A stretch of 64,000 bases of DNA from Owenia fusiformis (Eukaryota > Annelida > Polychaeta > Sabellida > Oweniidae), in the NCBI GenBank assembly GCA_903813345.2, contig CAIIXF020000004.1, forward strand, positions 28,149,986 through 28,213,985, read 5' to 3'. A model generated the notes under the pieces. The model was not told the origin of the DNA and ran no database searches. It saw nothing but the letters and a program-made list of their open reading frames with translations. Position numbers and translations under genes: made by a program. Shown here piece by piece: positions 1,864 through 62,219 of the stretch. Numbering within the stretch: the stretch's first letter is position 1; the number at the start of each line of letters is the position of its first letter.

Positions 1864-2009
1864 AGAAGTATAACATTATTTATTTGAGCTCTGGTGAAAA
1901 TTTTTACTTTTACACAAGTAACAAGTTCCATTTAAAATAATATTGGCAGTACTGCCTTGATGCAAGATATTCACAAAATCAGATAATCCAGTCACTGTAC
2001 AATTTTTAT

Positions 2010-2450
2010 TAATGTAGAGCCATAATTTTCAACAAAATAAGGCAAAACCCAGTCTAATTTTGAACCATATTTATCTTTTAAACCAATGATATAATCAAGA
2101 ACCTTTCCATCACCTACAATAACTAAATGTTCTAACCAAGTATTTATTCCCACTTATTTAGCCAAATCTTCAAGAAAACATAATAAATTGTCAGATTTAT
2201 CAGAAGTTTCTTCAGAAATATTGTAATATAAAAAATCAGATTTCTCAACATCAGGAGAACCTTGATTAAAAATATATGATTTGATAGTAGGGTGACTGGC
2301 ATTTGTGACAATATTTGAATTTCCCAATTGGATTAAGTTATAATAAAATAAATCTTGAAGTAGAGAATTAAATTCTGATGATTCTTCAAGTGATGGAGAA
2401 TAAAGAGTATTTAAAATATCATCAATCTCTAAATGAAGATTGGAAATCAA
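2010..2450 (-). pseudogene. DUF6589-like transposon protein fragment
   Basis: Read on the minus strand, 2450-2154 gives 98 residues ending CFLEDLAK. After one stop the same frame continues with a stretch containing LVIVGDGKVLDYIIGLKDKY and KLDWVLPYF. The VxVGDG...LKxxYGSxLxWLLP pattern is the hallmark of the DUF6589 family, common in transposon-like proteins of cnidarians, molluscs and other invertebrates. The function of the family is unknown, and the GDG may be catalytic or metal binding. The in-frame stop and lack of neighbours show a decayed copy. The assignment is from motif recognition without a database search. Confidence 0.5.
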
Positions 2451-2504
2451 AGGGTCGAGAGTAAGAAATGAGCATTGTTTCTCAAAAGTTACCTAAAGTT
2501 GGTC

Positions 2505-2632
2505 AGTCGTTATCTAAATCAATATAAGAGGGTAAAGCATTAATTCAAATATTGAAGGCCAAAGGAGAAATTGGGTCACCTTGCCGGAGGCCTATTGTTG
2601 CTTGTCTGAAATCAGTGTTTTCATTAAGTTAT
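2505..2632 (-). pseudogene. Non-LTR reverse transcriptase fragment
   Basis: The minus strand reads TDFRQATIGLRQGDPISPLA, then after a stop INALPSYIDLD. GLRQGDPxSPxxF is the conserved reverse transcriptase block just before the catalytic YADD segment in LINE-type retrotransposons, and INxLPSY matches the segment that follows. Two stops interrupt the frame and the YADD motif is not preserved. This is a dead fragment lying in the same orientation as the neighbouring remnants. Confidence 0.65.
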
Positions 2633-2711
2633 CCTTTCTACAAAACTGACTTTTTGTATACATATTTTATGCTTTAACTGCCTCATTTAACTTGTTAAAC
2701 CTATAACCATG

Positions 2712-2984
2712 CTAGACACACCGACCTACCTGCTGCAAATAATCAAGGAATGACCTGGGAACACCAAAATTCACAACAAAATTCACAACAAAATCAACAT
2801 TTGGAATATCAATCCAAAGACCAAAAGCAATTGTGCAAACCACGACCCTTAAGAAACTACAAACTACCGAAAATTCTCCAACATGACTCCTCCATTGAAC
2901 TTGAACCTCTACCATGTTAACCCCAATCCTCTTTTTATCAAAAGACATTGAACCTCCAAAAGAAGAAATTATGACGCAATCCAA
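2712..2984 (-). pseudogene. RecQ-like DNA helicase C-terminal motif fragment
   Basis: The 90-residue minus-strand frame contains VVVCTIAFGLWIDIPNVDFV, then NFGVPRSFLDYLQQVGRC. This matches RecQ-family superfamily 2 helicase motifs V and VI (VVATIAFGMGIDxPxVxxVxxxGxPxSxxxYxQExGRxGR). The tetrapeptide VVNF is duplicated, the first conserved glycine context is altered (GLW), and motif VI ends at GRCV followed by a stop, losing the final arginine. It is a fragment only. RecQ-like ORFs of this form occur within some invertebrate repeats, so it may not be host DNA-repair machinery. Confidence 0.6.
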
Positions 2985-3031
2985 TATGGCGGCAAATATA
3001 TAAAAAGTTTTGAACTGCTGCCCTTTTTACA

Positions 3032-3119
3032 GTATATACGATGCACAAATAGATTTGAGCCAGAAATATATGATTTAAAGACTTGAAAGTAACGTGAGTA
3101 TTGAATATTCTCCAAAATC
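3032..3119. repeat. Short dispersed repeat (partner at 62562-62649)
   Basis: The block beginning GTATATACGATG and ending CTCCAAAATC recurs at 62562-62649 in the same orientation with about a tenth of bases changed. The two copies are about 59.5 kb apart, marking an interspersed family. Confidence 0.8.
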
Positions 3120-3639
3120 TTACTAGGCCTAGGGGCCAGAATACAACACCACCCCCTTTCTTTTAAAACTAAGCTTCCCCGCTTAATCCCATAATTTAAT
3201 GTACTACCTTTTTTTAATTTTTAATGTTACACTGTGTACCTATACATAGAGATACCTTATACTTAGGGATTGGTTGCAAATGAAAAATTGAATTGAATAA
3301 TAATGTCCATGATAATTTGTAATTTAATCACTATAGTCTATTGTTGTATTAAATGCAATATTGCATATTATTCCATAGTTGAGGTCAAATCTGTAGAATA
3401 ACATGTACATATATTAACGATATTTTGCAAATGCGTGGAAAAAAGTGATATCTGTGGAATGCGGATTTGAAAACTCCCCCCAATGTGACGTGCATTGTTA
3501 CATTAGCTTACATGGTAATTTAATGACGTCACAAATATTGAAATGATTAATTAATAAAACTGAATGTTGTTTTGAATGCTTTGTTAGGTTGTGGGTGTAT
3601 GGTTAAGTGGTTAAGTGTCCAACTATGGGATAAATAGAA

Positions 3640-3782
3640 CATCCTATGATTTTTTCGTGATATCATTTTAATCCACTCGTTGATATCAATATCTGTACCC
3701 ATTCGCTACACTCACTCGTCCAGATATTGGTATCAACTCGCAGATAAAAATGATATCTCTCAAAATCATTGGATATCCTATA
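3640..3782. repeat. Imperfect inverted repeat, MITE-like hairpin
   Basis: The left arm 3640-3695 (ending TTGATATCAATATCTG) is the imperfect reverse complement of 3721-3782 (starting CAGATATTGGTATCAA). A 25-bp loop separates the arms, and they include GATATCATTTT/AAAATGATATC pairs. It could be a small foldback element or a decayed terminal-inverted-repeat element. No coding capacity. Confidence 0.7.
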
Positions 3783-3959
3783 CATATATAGTATCAGTAT
3801 ATCATCACTGTAGGATACATTTGGAGCCATGTTGGACCTGAGCCATCACCTTCTACGTCATAGGGTATGACATGCAGCCACTCATTTTGATAGAGCCCTT
3901 AAGTCACCACAGTCTGAATCTCACATCTTGGGTATGTAAGTTGATCCCAGATAGTTGTT

Positions 3960-4259
3960 CTAGAAAGGCCCCAATTCTCGACCTACAATACTGTATAATA
4001 TCACAATCATTCTGGTGTCAGGCACCTCAGTCACCGTCCTTCTAATCGAATTTCCCGTAGTTTGATCATATGTGTCCACAGTGTAGGTATAAGAGTGGGT
4101 CACGTTCGTTCCGTCCAGCTGTATCTTACTAGTTGTCATATTTTGTCCTTGTTCATTTGTCAATTCGGTTATCTGTTCATGTGTTGGCTTGTCTGTCGTC
4201 TGTTCCACTGGTACTGGCTGATATGGTTTAAGATGATATAAATACATAGGGCATGGCAA
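3960..4259 (-). CDS. Unrecognised hydrophilic ORF, 99 residues
   Basis: The minus-strand frame is rich in T, Q, E and D after residue 15 (for example KPTHEQITELTNEQ and SYTYTVDTYDQTTGNS) and looks more coding-like than its AT-rich surroundings. A possible 3' splice acceptor (ATATCAG) precedes the PVPVEQ segment. I recognise no domain. It could be an exon of a host or element protein, or chance. Confidence 0.3.
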   Translation of the reverse strand: MPCPMYLYHLKPYQPVPVEQTTDKPTHEQITELTNEQGQNMTTSKIQLDGTNVTHSYTYTVDTYDQTTGNSIRRTVTEVPDTRMIVILYSIVGRELGPF

Positions 4260-4329
4260 TCATTTTGTGATTCCTATAATCTCAAGAGTTCCAGCATATA
4301 CACCTCGTTAACATATAAAACCTAAAACC

Positions 4330-4511
4330 ATCGACACATTCTCAAACTAGACTATCTTCCTTAACTTCTAGCCAAATTATTATCCACAACGTGACTTATA
4401 AGTAGGTGTAAATCGGGAAATAAAATAATCTTACCGAAACCTAGTCCCGGAAGTAGTTCCGCAATGATACACTGACGATACATCTGTGTAACTAGTTGGG
4501 TAGCAGTGAAA
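4330..4511 (-). repeat. Repeated start-codon/5' splice-site cassette, copy A
   Basis: On the minus strand this block carries the end of a frame reading ELLPGLGF followed immediately by a strong donor (G|GTAAGA, junction at 4435/4434). Related blocks lie at 21583-21742 (plus strand) and 21822-21998 (minus strand). In the other two copies the sequence is ATGGCxGAACTACTTCCGGGA, an in-frame ATG (MAELLPG). Here the ATG has become ATT. A longer frame, 4690-4361, runs through and contains GGERCTLQHLFKGETGDSSR. The same coding piece plus donor in several places suggests a mobile cassette or gene-family first exon. Confidence 0.5.
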
Positions 4512-4985
4512 GTATCATCCTGCTCATCGGGATTGTTCATATCAGGATTTGTTGGAAAAATTTTACAGCCTCTGGAAGAATCCCCAGTTTCTCCTTTGAA
4601 TAGATGCTGCAAGGTACACCTCTCTCCACCACAGAAGTCTATTTCACTTTCCAGATATTTTAAGAATTTCAGATTTATAATAATTGTCAATAATGCAAAT
4701 GGTGGTTCTGACCCGCACTGGATTTTGGATTAGATTTAACGAGATTTCGTTTTTGGTGGGAACCAATTGGGTTATTGTCATGCACATGTACATCAAGATT
4801 ATAGAAACTTCTCTGAATATTTATATGCTGCATCTTTTGGCAAGTTGTTCATTGGTGTAAGGTGTTAAATAATTGAATTCATTTTTATCATCTCTGTCCA
4901 TGCTTCTATTGTCCTTCCTTTTCTTTTGTTGCAAGGTTTCCATGTCTTGCTCATTGAGCCTTTGTACCATTGTACAGTTGTCATG
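4512..4985. repeat. Dispersed repeat, copy 2 (partner at 71-487)
   Basis: This copy matches 71-487 and adds about 100 bases near its left end that include TCCCCAGTTTCTCCTTTGAA. It directly abuts the ELLPG cassette at 4330-4511, so the two may be parts of one larger element. Confidence 0.8.
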
Positions 4986-5284
4986 ATCAGGTCTAAAAAA
5001 TTAAAAACATGTTAAATAGAGATGTATGATTGATATATGATCTGCAAGAATTGTACATTTTCTTAGATATTGTCATTTCCTATTTCACTGGTTCTTTTGT
5101 TTCCATTTTTCTCAATGTGATTTTTACTTTTTTACTTTGGATATTCATTTTTTGGAGTTTAACTGGTCTGCTAATATTAGCTTTTTATAGCTTTTTTTAT
5201 TACCTTTTTAGTGTATTCTTCAACATTTTATATGAATGGCCATATAAACAGTTGCAAACACTAGGGCAGAGCATTTGTACTGAA

Positions 5285-21437: not shown

Positions 21438-21582
21438 GAGTATTAATATTTCTTAACTTTATCAGCATATTCTATATGTTGGAGGTCATTTTGGATTTCA
21501 GAAGGATTGAGAGAAAACCCAGAATAATAAACGTTCTCACCAAAAGTTCTATGAAATTTTCCTGTGCACGTATTCACTGCTA

Positions 21583-21998
21583 CCCACCTAGTTACACAGA
21601 CGTATTGTCAGTGTATCATGGCTGAACTACTTCCGGGATTTGAATCTGGTAAGATATTTTTATTTCTCGATTTACATCTACTTATAAGTCACGATGTGGA
21701 TTATTATTTGGCTCGAAGTTATGGGAGATAGTCTAGTTTGAGAATGTGTCGATGGTTTTAGGTTTGGTATGTTAACGAAGACGCATTTCACATATTTAGT
21801 CCCTCACTTTTGTTACACTGACACATTCTCAAACTAGACTATCTTCCTTTACTTCGAGCCAAATTATTATCCACAATGTGACTTATAAGTAGGTGTAAAT
21901 CGGGAAATAAAAAAATCTTACCGAAATCTAGTCCCGGAAGTAGTTCCGCCATGATACACTGACAATACATCTGTGTAACTAGGTGGGTAGCAGTGTTA
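21583..21998. repeat. Large inverted repeat with ~165-bp arms
   Basis: The left arm (21583-21742) and right arm (21822-21998) are inverted copies with a loop of about 80 bp. Shared landmarks are CTAGTTACACAGA, GTGTATCATGG, ACTACTTCCGGGA, and TAGTCTAGTTTGAGAATGTGTC with complements. Each arm carries the MAELLPG start and a GTAAGA donor, so two copies face each other; a third copy lies at 4330-4511. It can form a strong hairpin. Confidence 0.85.
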
Positions 21999-22049: not shown

Positions 22050-22440
22050 GGTAGTATATCACAAGTCAAACAATGAATCTTAAATCTATGATAAATTGGG
22101 CGATAATTAGTGAAAAAATATGCATCATCTTTTTTGTATATAGGAATAACTTTTGCTATTTTAAACCGATCCGGGAAAATTCCGCTTTTAAGAGATAGAT
22201 TAAAGATATGTAAAAGAGGATGGTGAAATAACAATCCACAATCTTTAATGATAAAAGTTTTAAAATCATCATGTCCTGCTGCAGAGGGTTTTAAGTTGGT
22301 AATTATTTTATTCAATTCATTTGCTTCAACGGTATCTAACAAAAGAGTTTGAGCTTGTCTTCCTATTGATTGCATAAAGTCCAAAGAATTTCTTTTTGAT
22401 TTTGGTATTTTACTTGCTAATTTTTCACCAACCTTTACGA
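22050..22440 (-). pseudogene. Non-LTR retrotransposon fragment (linker and RT fingers)
   Basis: The minus strand reads KVGEKLASKIPKSKRNS, then ELNKIITNLKPSAAGHDDF, LSLKSGIFPDRFKIAKVIPI, and ends in FFTNYRPI. This matches the linker and first reverse transcriptase blocks (PxKAxGxDxI, GxFPxxxKxAxVxPIxKxxD, NYRPIS) of CR1/jockey-group LINEs. The linker resembles the one in the ORF at 63092-64000 (IGKSLADKIP), so both probably come from one family. The frame then breaks into the inverted repeat at 21998. Truncated and inactive. Confidence 0.7.
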
Positions 22441-22501
22441 AAAAAATTATTAAATTGATTAGATTATATAAAACTAATTATTTATCAAACAAATATATCA
22501 T

Positions 22502-22585: not shown

Positions 22586-22779
22586 AGTCAGATCGAGGTT
22601 GCAAAATATTGAACTTAGGTAAATCAAATAAGGCAGTTTTACAATCTGGGCAAGTGTAGAATACATTGCATGCATTCTTTTACATTGGTTTTCATATTTC
22701 ATAAACTTAATATGTTTCTTTTAAAGCACAACATATGTTTCAAAATACATATATATTTCTCTAACATTGAGATCTGAGC

Positions 22780-23004
22780 TATTGCGCAGTATAGTAATCT
22801 ATTTTTAGACTAGCTTGTTGTTCTGAATTTGAGATCAGCGAGGTGAGATCTCAGCGACCTTTCTTAGGATCAATAAGGTGAGACCTCAATGATCTCTGAT
22901 TCTTGGATCAACTGCTAGACCTATATGATCTCTGATTTTAATGACCTCTGATCTCGAGGTTAGGTATAAAAGCCAATGTTTTCAGGAATTGCGCAGTTTT
23001 TAGA
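22780..23004. other. GATCTC-rich flank of the RAG-related transposon
   Basis: GATCTC, GAGATC and GATCTCTGAT motifs recur about eight times in both orientations between 22830 and 22960, forming a short degenerate repeat. It ends at TAGA (23001-23004), the left target duplication of the adjacent element. Confidence 0.5.
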
Positions 23005-23020
23005 CACAGCTTCCCCAGAT
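23005..23020. repeat. Transposon terminal inverted repeat, 3' side of gene
   Basis: CACAGCTTCCCCAGAT, preceded by TAGA. Its first five bases, CACAG, equal the start of the V(D)J recombination signal heptamer (CACAGTG); this is suggestive only. Confidence 0.85.
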
Positions 23021-23458
23021 CTGATACTTAGCTGTAATTATTAGATTAACCACAAGTGGCGCTGCTTAAGTTTCTTAACTGCATGCCTCTGATAAGACAG
23101 AGTATCAATTACAAGCCTATCTGCTGTACAGTGGGAAGTATCAGTGTTTCACTATGAAGGCAATATTTGACCAAATTATAGCATTATTCTTTATTCTTTT
23201 TTACATTATTTTGCATCTAGAATAAATTGCTGTAAAGTAAAATGATTAGTTTAAAGTATGGTCTATGTATGTAACTAATTTTAATTGGAGGGGCAAAGCT
23301 TGTAAATCCAAATATATCACACCAAAATGTCTACATAAAATGAGATATCTTTCAATAAGCTCCCCATACCATGCAGGCTAACTCTTCTACAGATGCCTAT
23401 TAATTGATTTATACAACCAACCATAGTATGTTGAATATAAACTAAAATGTACTTACAA

Positions 23459-23953
23459 TTAATCCAGAAGTTTTTTGACAAAATTACGTTTCTTGATGAT
23501 CGGATTTGATGTTAATAGTTCTGGTTGACAGCTTACAAAATGTTCGGTCATGGTTGCTACGAGTCTATTTAAATTGTTTTTAATTCCACGCATTCTATCT
23601 CCAAGATCATTGTAAACAGCGTGGATACTTTCCACTCCCTGCTCACCCATGAGACCCATACCACATTTGTATTTTATTATCCAATCAACCATGTGGTCTT
23701 CTAACAGATGTTGTTTAAGGATGATATTTGCTTTAGGGAAGCAAACTCTGTAAACATCTAAATAGTCATCTATGGCATCTTGGATATTTGATGTGTCTGA
23801 TCCATCTATATAATTCATATGGGAAATCATTTTATGAACTGAAGAAAATTTTTCATTTACAGCTTGTAGCCTCTCTCTTATTTTTTCAGCTTTCTTGATA
23901 ATTTTTCGTTCATTTTTTAGTCCCTTGCATATTTTCTGACAACACTTTGACAC
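23459..23953 (-). pseudogene. DDE transposase, C-terminal part (after frameshift)
   Basis: This frame continues the transposase after a one-base shift near 23930-23950. It contains HLLEDHMVDWIIKYKCGMGL, then MGEQGVESIHAVYNDLGD and LNRLVATMTEHF. In related proteins the GLMGEQGxESIH block carries the last acidic catalytic residue, here a glutamate near 23630-23645. The end (KKRNFVKKLLD) and stop look natural. The shift leaves the upstream frame to stop at 23917 after YARD. The upstream exon and this segment together give the expected length of the family, so the break is likely recent or an assembly error. Confidence 0.75.
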
Positions 23954-25419
23954 ACATCATTGTACACTGTGGGGTCCAAATACTTATGGCAGTGATTCCC
24001 AACGAATGACTTGCCGTGATATGGAGCTCTGTTTATATGGTGTTTTTTTAACGTTTCATCTAAACTTGCTGCCACAGTGCCAGATTCTTCATTTAATGTA
24101 TTTTTTGCTACCCTTTCTTCAATTTCTGTTTTTAATTGTTCCCTCTGTTGTTCGTTTCTTCTTGAATTTAACTTGTCTCTCAATTTTTGAATTTTTCCAG
24201 TCTCTATGATATATTTGCCATATGGTGTGTCTGCCCTTTCCATAATTAATCTGTTTTCACTGGCGATGTTATCAGCTATTAGGAGGTCAAGTCTGTGGCA
24301 TAATGACAGGAGGTGGTCATGGTGTTTTTTCACAACACCCAGCAGGACATGTAAATATGGGGGGCAAATATGATCTATCTCTATAGGGAGTAGAGGCTTG
24401 TTAATCACGTTATTGTGAAGTTTTGCATGACTCAATTTACCTTTAGATTCAGTAGAGAACTTTTCGTAGTCAGTTGACATTTTATCTAATGTTCTGCATG
24501 GAGACTTTCCTCGCATGTTCTGTGGTACTTTTAGATTTTCTGATTTTATGTTGCACCATAAACATGGATGACAACCAGCTGCCCCTGAAATTCCCATGCA
24601 TGTGCACAGAAACAGGTAATCACCACATATGAAAAGTTCAATAGTTTTGTCATGCCATTTCATATTTTGCAATGTCAAAATCTGGTCCTTATATCTTCCT
24701 ATACATATTTCAAGGTTTTCCCTGCTGTCCTTTGCATTCATCGCTGCAAAAACAATCACATTATTTGTCGAGTTGGGATTTTCAGTATTGACTATTTGTA
24801 AAGTCATCTTTAGGCTTTTGCCCCCATGGTCCCCACCAAGTTTTATCCAAATTTTGTTTTCTGGTATAATAGATTCGTTTTGTTGTAACATATTGTATTT
24901 GTTTAACTTGTCCAAATGGTTGTGTACATGTATAGGTAAATCACTCATATAGGCTAAGGGTAATTTTTTGTATACTTTACCCTTCCTTGAATTTGGTGAT
25001 ATGGTATTTCTTGTTGCTAATTTTATCATTTCCCCTCTCAAATCAATTGCTTTCAATAATTCCTTCCTGTACTCCCTTTGTTTATTTTGACTTTCTACAC
25101 TAACATTGCACGATTTTAAATGTCTAGTAATGTTTTTGAATTGTCTCCATGACAATTTGGCGGATGATTTTATTGCTAGGGCTTGTTTCCTTGATATCTT
25201 GATTTTATTTTTCTCATAACAGTTAAGAGTTTCTCTGTTTGCCTTTTTTCGATACTGAATGAGCCATTCTTTTGATATTTGCTTTAAAACCGCTTCATTG
25301 TTTTTCCCAGATGATGTTTTTCTATATATATTCATCTTTCTCGCACGTCTCCTCTTTAGGGGCGAGGAAGCAACTGATGAATTGACCTGTGCCCTTTCAA
25401 CTCTTAAAAACACAAGTGG
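23917..25419 (-). CDS. DDE transposase, main exon (RAG1/Chapaev-related)
   Basis: Exon 2 begins after the acceptor TTTATTTCAG (25421-25420). A basic N-terminal helix region (LKRRRARKMN, RKKANRETLN) leads to a catalytic core. Candidate first Asp is in KLGGDHGGKSLKM (24829-24831), second Asp in FICGDYLFLC (24619-24621), followed by GISGAAGCHPCLWC. The C-x2-C after the second Asp is typical of the CMC/Transib/RAG1 transposase group and likely binds zinc together with later histidines. The frame runs clean for about 500 residues until the frameshift at its end. Transposases of this group cut at inverted repeats and insert DNA. Family is inferred from motif order. Confidence 0.8.
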   Translation of the reverse strand, partial: PLVFLRVERAQVNSSVASSPLKRRRARKMNIYRKTSSGKNNEAVLKQISKEWLIQYRKKANRETLNCYEKNKIKISRKQALAIKSSAKLSWRQFKNITRHLKSCNVSVESQNKQREYRKELLKAIDLRGEMIKLATRNTISPNSRKGKVYKKLPLAYMSDLPIHVHNHLDKLNKYNMLQQNESIIPENKIWIKLGGDHGGKSLKMTLQIVNTENPNSTNNVIVFAAMNAKDSRENLEICIGRYKDQILTLQNMKWHDKTIELFICGDYLFLCTCMGISGAAGCHPCLWCNIKSENLKVPQNMRGKSPCRTLDKMSTDYEKFSTESKGKLSHAKLHNNVINKPLLPIEIDHICPPYLHVLLGVVKKHHDHLLSLCHRLDLLIADNIASENRLIMERADTPYGKYIIETGKIQKLRDKLNSRRNEQQREQLKTEIEERVAKNTLNEESGTVAASLDETLKKHHINRAPYHGKSFVGNHCHKYLDPTVYNDVCQSVVRKYARD

Positions 25420-25605
25420 CTGAAATAAATTTAATTTAGCGTTTAGTAAAAGAGCTGTATTTGAAACTATGGATTTTGATATCAAATGTCTGAGTATGAG
25501 TATTTCAGATTTTCATCAGCTTATCTTTATATTTAATCATATTCTCCATATTTACATACATTTACTTAATTATCTTATAATGATTTTTAAAGCAAAGTAA
25601 CATAC
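25420..25605 (-). other. Intron of the transposase gene
   Basis: Bounded by donor AAAG|GTATGT (25605-25600) and acceptor TTATTTCAG|CC (25421-25420). Both flanking exons are in phase 0 (exon 1 is 645 bp, exactly 215 codons), so removal joins the zinc-domain exon to the DDE exon. It is 186 bp and AT-rich. Confidence 0.7.
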
Positions 25606-26250
25606 CTTTCCCCGGGTTTTACATGTCAATTGTTCTTTATTAACAGAGTTTTTCAATTTTCTCTTTACAAGACATGTAAGTAGCTTTTCCTCCATAACTG
25701 AGAGATGATCATTTATACTTCTAGACATAATTTCTTGTATTGTTGCCTCTCTCCCACGGCCAGGTGTCATTTCCGTTGACATATCAAGACTGACGTCCAT
25801 ATTAGCGCATTGTTTTTTAGGGGTACTAGCTATTGGACTAACAGGGCAGCCCTCCAACGAATTTGGCAACTTTCTTTTCTTTCCTAGTACTTTGTTATTT
25901 GAGTATTCATTGCAAACCCAGCAGTCTTCACAATTATCCGAAATGTTATTCCATTTGCTATTTATGCTTACATAATGTTTCACTTTGGTGTCCTTGTTTT
26001 TTTCATTGCCTCTTCCCTGCTTCTTTGAATCTTTTAAAGTTCTATAGCATTTTTCACAGACTTTATTTGGGTGAATGTTTGGATTATCTAAATCTAACTT
26101 TATGTCTGGACAGTACTGTAGAAGTTCAGCTTGAATCAATGTACACGATTTTGGTACATATTTTTTACGAAATACTCTGTTTTTTAATCCACAAAGTCTG
26201 CATAATGTTTCTAAAGCACATTTGTGATAATCTGTATGATTATCCATCAT
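25606..26250 (-). CDS. RAG1 N-terminus-like zinc-binding exon of transposase
   Basis: Starts at ATG 26250. Residues 17-20 are CRLC followed by G; residues 59-61 are IHP; residues 65-68 are CEKC (NIHPNKVCEKCYRTLKD). The CRxCG...IHPxxxCxxC arrangement matches the zinc-binding stretch in the RAG1 N-terminal region (CRICG...IHPxxFCxxC) and the N-RAG-TP proteins. A second cysteine cluster (NCEDCWVC) lies near residue 110, then a basic KKRKLPN stretch, a possible nuclear localisation signal. The end (CKTRGK) meets a GTATGT donor. The domain likely serves DNA or protein binding for the transposase; that is inference. Confidence 0.75.
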
Positions 26251-26826
26251 GAAAATATTACATCCAGAGCATCTAGCATCAACTGAGTAAGTTGTAACAA
26301 ATTCTTATCCTAATTAAGGCATCTACTTGGAACATTAATTTCAGGAAAACTTGCTTTGCCCCTCACTTCAAACCTTTTCAATCTGATAGGGAACACTTAA
26401 AAGTTAACATATCTGAAAAATCATTGATATGGATGTGCAGGAAACATAGATATTTAGTGCTAAAGAGGAGAGAACATTAGCTTATCTCACTAAATTCTGA
26501 TTTCAACTCCCACAAGACATGTGGTTCTGATAACACATTTATTAAAGTCAACTTTACTTTGAAATCAAGATTTTAGACCACAGAAGTAGTTAGACAGCAG
26601 ATAGACTTATAATTTATTGCCCAGATGTATGGCTTAACACTGTTTATATTTGAAGAAAGTTGTAAGATGAAGTAAACATCACTCTCCATCATGGCTGATG
26701 ATGCTATCAGTTGCCAGGCAATAACTCAGAATGAGGCTCATTAAATATTAATGCAGGCTCATTGAATATTAAAGCAGCAGATTGGGTTTCACAAGCTCTG
26801 TGAACTAAATAACACAGGCAGAGGCT
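26251..26826 (-). promoter_or_regulatory. 5' leader of the transposon gene
   Basis: The 576 bp between the start codon and the right terminal repeat must hold the element's own promoter if it is autonomous. Visible content is AT-rich with a direct repeat of GCTCATTAAATATTAATGCA / GCTCATTGAATATTAAAGCA at about 26736-26775. No canonical core promoter stands out. Confidence 0.4.
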
Positions 26827-26842
26827 ATCTGGGGAAGCTGTG
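26827..26842. repeat. Transposon terminal inverted repeat, 5' side of gene
   Basis: ATCTGGGGAAGCTGTG, exact reverse complement of 23005-23020, followed by TAGA. Confidence 0.85.
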
Positions 26843-27083
26843 TAGAGAAGAATTAAATTCAGTTTTGAAACAGTAAGAGATATTGTAGTTATTAAGAGAT
26901 TGAAGAAATAAAATATATTTTAATACGCCTCTGAAGAGAAAGTATTTTGTGTTTGAATTAAACATTTAGAAATATGTAACACAAGTATGCTTCTTCTTGT
27001 ACCGTTTTTTGCCTATAAGACCTATATTTGATGGCTGAAATTTATTATATAAAAAGAGAAATGAAATTGATGATTCTGATTAC

Positions 27084-61407: not shown

Positions 61408-61665
61408 CTAAGATATTGGCAATATCTGTGTCTCGTCAAGTGGAAGACAAGGATATACATGTGAGTAGCCTTTCCCAACTTTATCTGAATGACCAGGCTG
61501 CTCGTAGAAACCACATACATGTTTCCAATTTAACTGAATCATTTCTTGAATAGCACACTGGACCATAAGGTCCAACGATCCGACTAACATCACTTTGCAT
61601 GTCCTCTCATGTCCAGCAGTTGAATGAATCTTTACACCTAAAGTAATCACATTTTCAGTATACAA
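61408..61665 (-). pseudogene. CACTA-like transposase core fragment
   Basis: The frame reads MLVGSLDLMVQCAIQEMIQL, then NWKHVCGFYEQPGHSDKVGK and GYSHVYPCLPLDE. In CACTA-type transposases the second catalytic aspartate is followed by xxxxMxQxNGxxGCxxCxxPGxxxxxGxGxxxVYP; here the order is kept but one of the two cysteines is a tyrosine. It is a diverged fragment and could be from the same family as 20832-21437. Confidence 0.45.
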
Positions 61666-61777
61666 AAAGTGTGTACAGGATGTATAGTAACAACGGAAAG
61701 TGAACAGAATGTCATTTTTAATTGTTTGTTTTGCTGTGTTAGTAAGGAAAAGGACCTATGATGTCCTAAACTGTTGG

Positions 61778-62215
61778 CGCTCACTGACTGGTGATTGGCT
61801 CTCACTGACTGGTGATTGGCTCGCACTGACTGGTGATTGGCTCTCACTGACTGGTGATTGGCTCTCACTGAGTGGTGATTGGCTCTCACTGACTGGTGAT
61901 TGGCTCTCACTGACTGGTGATTGGCTCTCACTGACTGGTGATTGGCTCTCACTGACTGGTGATTGGCTCTCACTGACTGGTGATTGGCTCTCACTGACTG
62001 GTGATTGGTTCTCACTGACTGGTGATTGGCTCTCACTGACTGGTGATTGGCTCTCACTGACTGGTGATTGGCTCTCACTGACTGGTGATTGGCTCTCACT
62101 GACTGGTGATTGGCTCTCACTGACTGGTGATTGGCTCTCACTGACTGGTGATTGGCTCTCACTGACTGGTGATTGGCTCTCACTGACTGGTGATTAGCTC
62201 TCACTGACTGGTTGG
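61778..62215. repeat. 21-bp minisatellite, about 20 units
   Basis: CTCTCACTGACTGGTGATTGG is repeated about 20 times with rare single changes (for example GAGTGG at about 61870 and GGTTCTC at about 62007). Because 21 is divisible by three and no stops occur, both strands stay open as seven-residue repeats (plus SLTGDWL; minus ANHQSVR). These are not evidence of a gene. An isolated partial unit lies at 62700-62720. Confidence 0.9.
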
Positions 62216-62219
62216 ATCA

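Follow-up and report, generated by a model that had tools for sequence, protein, structure and literature searches.

A Chapaev-type DNA transposon with a RAG1-N-like zinc domain in the annelid Owenia fusiformis

Architecture and genomic copies of the element

The window, a stretch of 64,000 nucleotides from the annelid Owenia fusiformis (contig CAIIXF020000004.1), harbors a DNA transposon with one predicted spliced gene on its minus strand. The features of the locus are listed below (TSD, target site duplication; TIR, terminal inverted repeat; catalytic and zinc-ligand codons were counted by hand).

23005-26842, gene on the minus strand: DNA transposon of ~3.84 kb, with ends read from the sequence
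23001..23004, no strand: left copy of the TSD, TAGA (sequence and unoccupied relatives)
23005..23020, plus strand: TIR at the 3' end of the gene (sequence, sister copies, and genome pattern search)
23459..23938, minus strand: final stretch of exon 2, out of frame with the main part in the window copy; approximate point of frame change
23630-23632, minus strand: codon of the candidate catalytic Glu
23708-23710 and 23693-23695, minus strand: codons of the H-x4-H pair
23939..25419, minus strand: main part of exon 2, DUF1280 (Chapaev) transposase (Pfam match and alignment)
24553-24564, minus strand: C-x2-C
24619-24621, minus strand: candidate catalytic Asp in GDY
24829-24831, minus strand: candidate catalytic Asp in GGD
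25420..25605, minus strand: predicted GT-AG intron of 186 bases, phase 0 (splice sites kept across loci)
25606..26250, minus strand: exon 1, with the RAG1-N-like (Chapa) zinc domain and a linker; the first ATG of the open frame is taken as the putative start codon
26827..26842, minus strand: TIR at the 5' end of the gene (sequence, sister copies, and genome pattern search)
26843..26846, no strand: right copy of the TSD, TAGA (sequence and unoccupied relatives)

The initial annotation had described perfect 16-bp TIRs flanked by TAGA, and the sequence agrees in every respect: the TIRs match exactly (23005-23020 against 26827-26842) and TAGA is found on either side. We then searched the host assembly (498 Mb, 525 contigs), in which the TIR 16-mer occurs at six places, two for each of three copies of the element, and the 16-mer read backwards, used as a control, at none. 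The two sister copies, on contigs C7 and C9, have ends identical to those of the window copy and 99.3% identity to it. The annotation had asked whether further copies with 4-bp TSDs exist and whether their boundaries would differ; both sisters share the boundaries of the window element and are flanked by other TSDs (CATA and CGAA, compared with TAGA in the window; 4 bp in 3/3). Pairwise, the three copies differ by 8, 16, and 18 substitutions over ~3.84 kb, and thus look young. A decayed relative of exon 1 is found on contig C6 (83%, two stops).

The element lies within a host repeat of ~0.5 kb, which is dispersed in the genome and occupies positions 22653-23004 and 26847 to ~26982; its left flank was found at 15 places among the matches listed, the window's own included. 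We joined the window flanks without the element, keeping one TAGA, and aligned them to the fetched relatives of the flank repeat. The joined flanks aligned through the junction in 7/7 relatives (88.8-92.8% identity; 19-27 gap positions per alignment). One of them (L034) has TTTTTAGAGAAG intact at the junction, corresponding to an unoccupied site, and the remaining six show differences from the window close to it, no more than a few bases away. The relatives spanning the junction and the TAGA flanks together reveal the pattern of a cut-and-paste insertion with a 4-bp duplication. Two pairs of copies of the flank repeat were also noted on contig C12, ~5.0 kb apart and on the same strand, an arrangement that may correspond to the LTRs of a retroelement.

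The phase-0 intron that had been proposed at 25605-25420 has consensus splice sites, and a GT-AG intron of phase 0 is present at the homologous place in 16/16 loci examined (the window, L001-L013, L017, and L018). This count left out L014, L015, and L016 and includes L018 through a match to the last part of exon 1 only; in L011 and L012, the acceptor was taken to lie one codon 5' of the BLAST match. All the motifs that had been pointed out in the gene (CRLCG, IHPNKVCEKC, GGD, GDY, C-x2-C, and GEQGVES) are indeed there, with GEQGVES lying in a different frame from the main part of exon 2 in the window copy. Near 23938, the window copy lacks 10 bases relative to its two sisters, which breaks the frame of exon 2; the sisters both have 656 open codons in this exon, so that the description of the window copy as near-intact is apt. 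A second intron at the frame change (~23.94 kb) was considered and rejected; the sister copies read through this position without one.

The genome contains at least 51 matches to exon 1 and at least 39 to DUF1280. CAC/GTG termini together with an exact 4-bp TSD were found in 12 of 19 elements (the window and 18 loci) by an end search that allowed at most one mismatch in 14 and required CAC, so that the CAC feature is built into this count; the 12 TSDs all differ. Run on 64 overlapping control pieces of the window and on 180 shuffles of the flanks from 9 loci, the same search yielded no such pair; a single control piece held an inverted pair without duplication. No ends were accepted in the 7 other elements (L011, L012, and L014-L018). 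A looser search of 11 loci yielded a single candidate in L012 and another in L017, neither beginning with CAC and neither accepted, and inverted pairs without duplication, obtained in the first search in L004, L005, L008, L010, L013, and L016, were not used.

Other frames with a similar beginning were noticed in the genome. In L019 (positions 1951-5052), a 1034-codon frame begins in a Chapa-like manner (CRVC...VHP) and later matches DUF6589, with no match to DUF1280, and it is perhaps another transposase lineage with the zinc domain. L020 and L021, whose frames start alike as printed, each have a Chapa-type frame of 551 codons and, after it, a second frame that carries GGDHG close to its beginning; in L020, this second frame gives a weak DUF1280 match, below the cut-off.

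The zinc domain of exon 1

RAG1 is the recombinase of antibody genes, and exon 1 had been annotated as containing a domain like its N-terminal region. Taken alone, exon 1 gave a weak match to zf-AD (E of 0.044-0.054), no match to RAG1_imp_bd, and RAG1 in the PDB at an E value of 2.5, i.e., at chance level. Profiles built from the family placed the RAG1 N-terminal domain (21wb) at the top of the PDB search, with E values of 1.2e-6 (10 rows) and 4.6e-12 (18 rows). Since both profiles include rows also drawn from the RAG1_imp_bd search, we repeated the search without such rows and found 21wb first again, at 6.5e-5 with 8 rows and 2.3e-10 with 13 rows; full-length RAG1 chains had E values of 2.8 and 3.1e-8, respectively. 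The printed alignments of the profiles to RAG1 pair the His, CRxCG, IHP, C-x2-C, Trp, and last C-x2-C positions. At E ≤0.01, 11/18 members match RAG1_imp_bd and 10/18 match zf-AD, the window member matching neither. The relationship of exon 1 to the RAG1 N-terminal zinc region is therefore confirmed at the level of family profiles, not by exon 1 alone. The zinc-domain frames of L014, L015, L026, and L029, unlike exon 1 of the window, score above the curated cut-off of RAG1_imp_bd as single sequences.

Next in the PDB search came a Drosophila chain (7po9), which we take to be a ZAD, with E values of 0.0033 (18 rows), 0.0071 (13 rows), 0.066 (8 rows), and 0.4 (10 rows). The genome has three zf-AD matches over the cut-off, all at places that exon 1 also matches. 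A bacterial Fin protein scored like 7po9 (0.0013 with the 13-row profile) and a FYVE domain came close with 8 rows, so the likeness to ZAD may reflect nothing beyond the common treble-clef fold, as this shared zinc fold is called. No paper linking ZAD with RAG1 was found in the literature searched. Single-sequence structure predictions gave a mean pLDDT of 40.6 for exon 1 and 37.4 for the main part of exon 2, neither yielding a usable fold.

The transposase of exon 2

We analyzed exon 2 against Pfam and obtained a match to DUF1280 at 2e-16 (5.9e-17 for a sister copy), a family that PMC3985635 identifies as the Chapaev transposase. NCBIfam gave one match, far below its cut-off. In our alignment, Asp 197 (in GGD), Asp 267 (in GDY), Cys 286, and Cys 289 are invariant in 10/10 family members. 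Further downstream, a His-x4-His pair is located 21 residues before the Glu of a GxES motif in 14/14 longer exon 2 translations. The set includes near-identical pairs but neither the window copy nor L009, both of which have broken frames, and several of its translations hold additional His-x4-His pairs.

The catalytic residues of RAG1 are D600, D708, and E962, and its zinc ligands are C727, C730, H937, and H942, according to PMC4914335. The distances from the second Asp to the Cys-x2-Cys (+19/+22) equal those of D708, C727, and C730, the distance from His-x4-His to Glu is 21 here compared with 20 in RAG1, and the gap between the two Asp is 70 compared with 108. Apart from the gap between the two Asp, the Asp-Cys-Cys/His-His-Glu layout predicted in exon 2 thus closely resembles that of RAG1, a likeness noticed post hoc in a comparison with RAG1 alone.

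When searched against the PDB, the exon 2 profile found no RAG1 chain; its best match, pelota (E of 0.021), was taken as chance. The Pfam RAG1 core (PF12940) gave no match in this genome and none in the controls. As the profile misses RAG1 in the PDB, homology of the catalytic part rests on the literature and on residue spacing. Of the DDE transposase annotated in exon 2, what stands is a transposase of the Chapaev type, through DUF1280; a sequence match to the RAG1 core was not obtained.

Transib and TransibSU (ProtoRAG) elements resemble the window element in their DDE transposase, their CAC termini, and a proposed common ancestry. The zinc domain common to the element and RAG1 at the profile level, the identical +19/+22 spacing, and the His pair at 21 instead of 20 residues before Glu would all suit an element of the Transib or ProtoRAG type, i.e., one directly related to the RAG1 core. 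We nevertheless consider this very unlikely. The flanks fit 4 bp and not 5 bp (the latter judged by eye) in all 12 resolved elements, whereas the TSDs of Transibs have 5 bp according to PMC4411706; exon 2 matches DUF1280 and its profile retrieves no RAG1 chain; and besides the exon frames, the element has no frame longer than 136 codons. The silence of PF12940, shared by its controls, carries little weight here.

Assignment to Chapaev and relation to RAG1

Chapaev transposons have 4-bp TSDs and CAC termini, like the element described here. We conclude, with a probability of about 0.95, that this element is a Chapaev DNA transposon of the autonomous type that has moved recently, and that its window copy has lost its reading frame. 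Its assignment to the Chapaev type is made through the DUF1280 match and published descriptions rather than through reference Chapaev or Chapaev3 sequences.

We propose that the single spliced gene of the sister copies would encode a transposase of ~870 residues that presumably binds zinc. A linker would connect its RAG1-N-like (Chapa) zinc domain to a DDE catalytic domain, in which Cys-Cys/His-His would form a zinc site. This protein, perhaps contacting DNA with its zinc domain, would bind the terminal repeats, catalyze excision of the element, and insert it at a staggered cut in the target, which would account for the 4-bp TSDs. The window copy would then be mobile only with transposase supplied in trans from elsewhere, for instance by its sisters.

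The three separate frames of the coding parts in the window copy might suggest that zinc domain and transposase belong to distinct neighboring elements or genes, brought together by chance; this idea is made extremely improbable by the order of the parts and the intron, alike in 16/16 loci, by the three copies with common ends, and by L016, in which a start matching zf-AD (E of 0.0028, below the cut-off) and DUF1280 belong to one 904-codon frame. Equally improbable is a domesticated host gene retaining transposon ends, for which one could cite the frames open in 2/3 copies, since three dispersed, near-identical copies, each with its own TSD, point to recent transposition.

The pairing of domains in this Chapaev element has precedents. 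In PMC4411706 (2015), the truncated N-terminal part of RAG1 is named the Chapa domain after Chapaev transposons, which are attributed to Kapitonov and Jurka (2007), and reports in Repbase from 2007 and 2008 are cited. The Chapa domain is described there as the RAG1-N-like domain of Chapaevs, present in their transposases and followed by a RING finger in two Chapaev subgroups. The combination in the window element is thus the published Chapaev layout, with a DUF1280 transposase and a Chapa zinc domain in one protein, and the element is a further example and no new element type. It differs from those two subgroups in the RING finger, for which there was no match after Chapa in the members scanned here.

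Compared with vertebrate RAG1, the element shares the N-terminal zinc domain, as judged by profile, and a similar spacing of catalytic and zinc-binding residues; it differs in a catalytic part without sequence match, in the RING finger, not matched here, and in RAG2, no partner of this kind having been seen in the window element, as judged without a RAG2 profile. N-RAG-TP of Aplysia, known here by description, likewise has RAG1-N-like sequence within a mobile element. It is said to be composed entirely of such sequence in PMC8355894, whereas the window element has a transposase in the same gene.

The initial annotation had presented the pairing as new evidence on how RAG1 acquired its N-terminal region. 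This claim does not hold, as PMC4411706 already describes the pairing and infers that an ancestor common to Chapaev, Transib, and RAG1 had the Chapa/RING domains fused to its core, so that the evolutionary inference on the RAG1 N terminus has been in print since 2015. The value of the present element lies elsewhere: its young copies, open frames, exact ends, and distinct TSDs make it a clean, testable example of a transposase with a RAG1-N-like domain, in which the job of this domain in a transposase could be asked, with a bearing on its role in RAG1. As a tentative and rather doubtful extension, the RAG1 N-terminal zinc domain, Chapa, and insect ZAD might form one ancient treble-clef family, the combination of Chapa with an Asp-Cys-Cys/His-His-Glu DDE transposase might predate the split between Chapaev and Transib, and N-RAG-TP might be a Chapaev recognized by its first exon only.

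The window, in which an Rfam scan gave no match, contains several other repeats. A separate repeat of ~367 bases (22095-22462) has many dispersed copies with 67-98% identity across the stretch, and an inverted repeat of 176 nt, 90% complementary and with a 69-nt spacer, occupies positions 21575-21750 and 21820-21995. Finally, an open frame on the minus strand (61647-62216) reads SVRANHQ over and over, which identifies a tandem repeat at this place.
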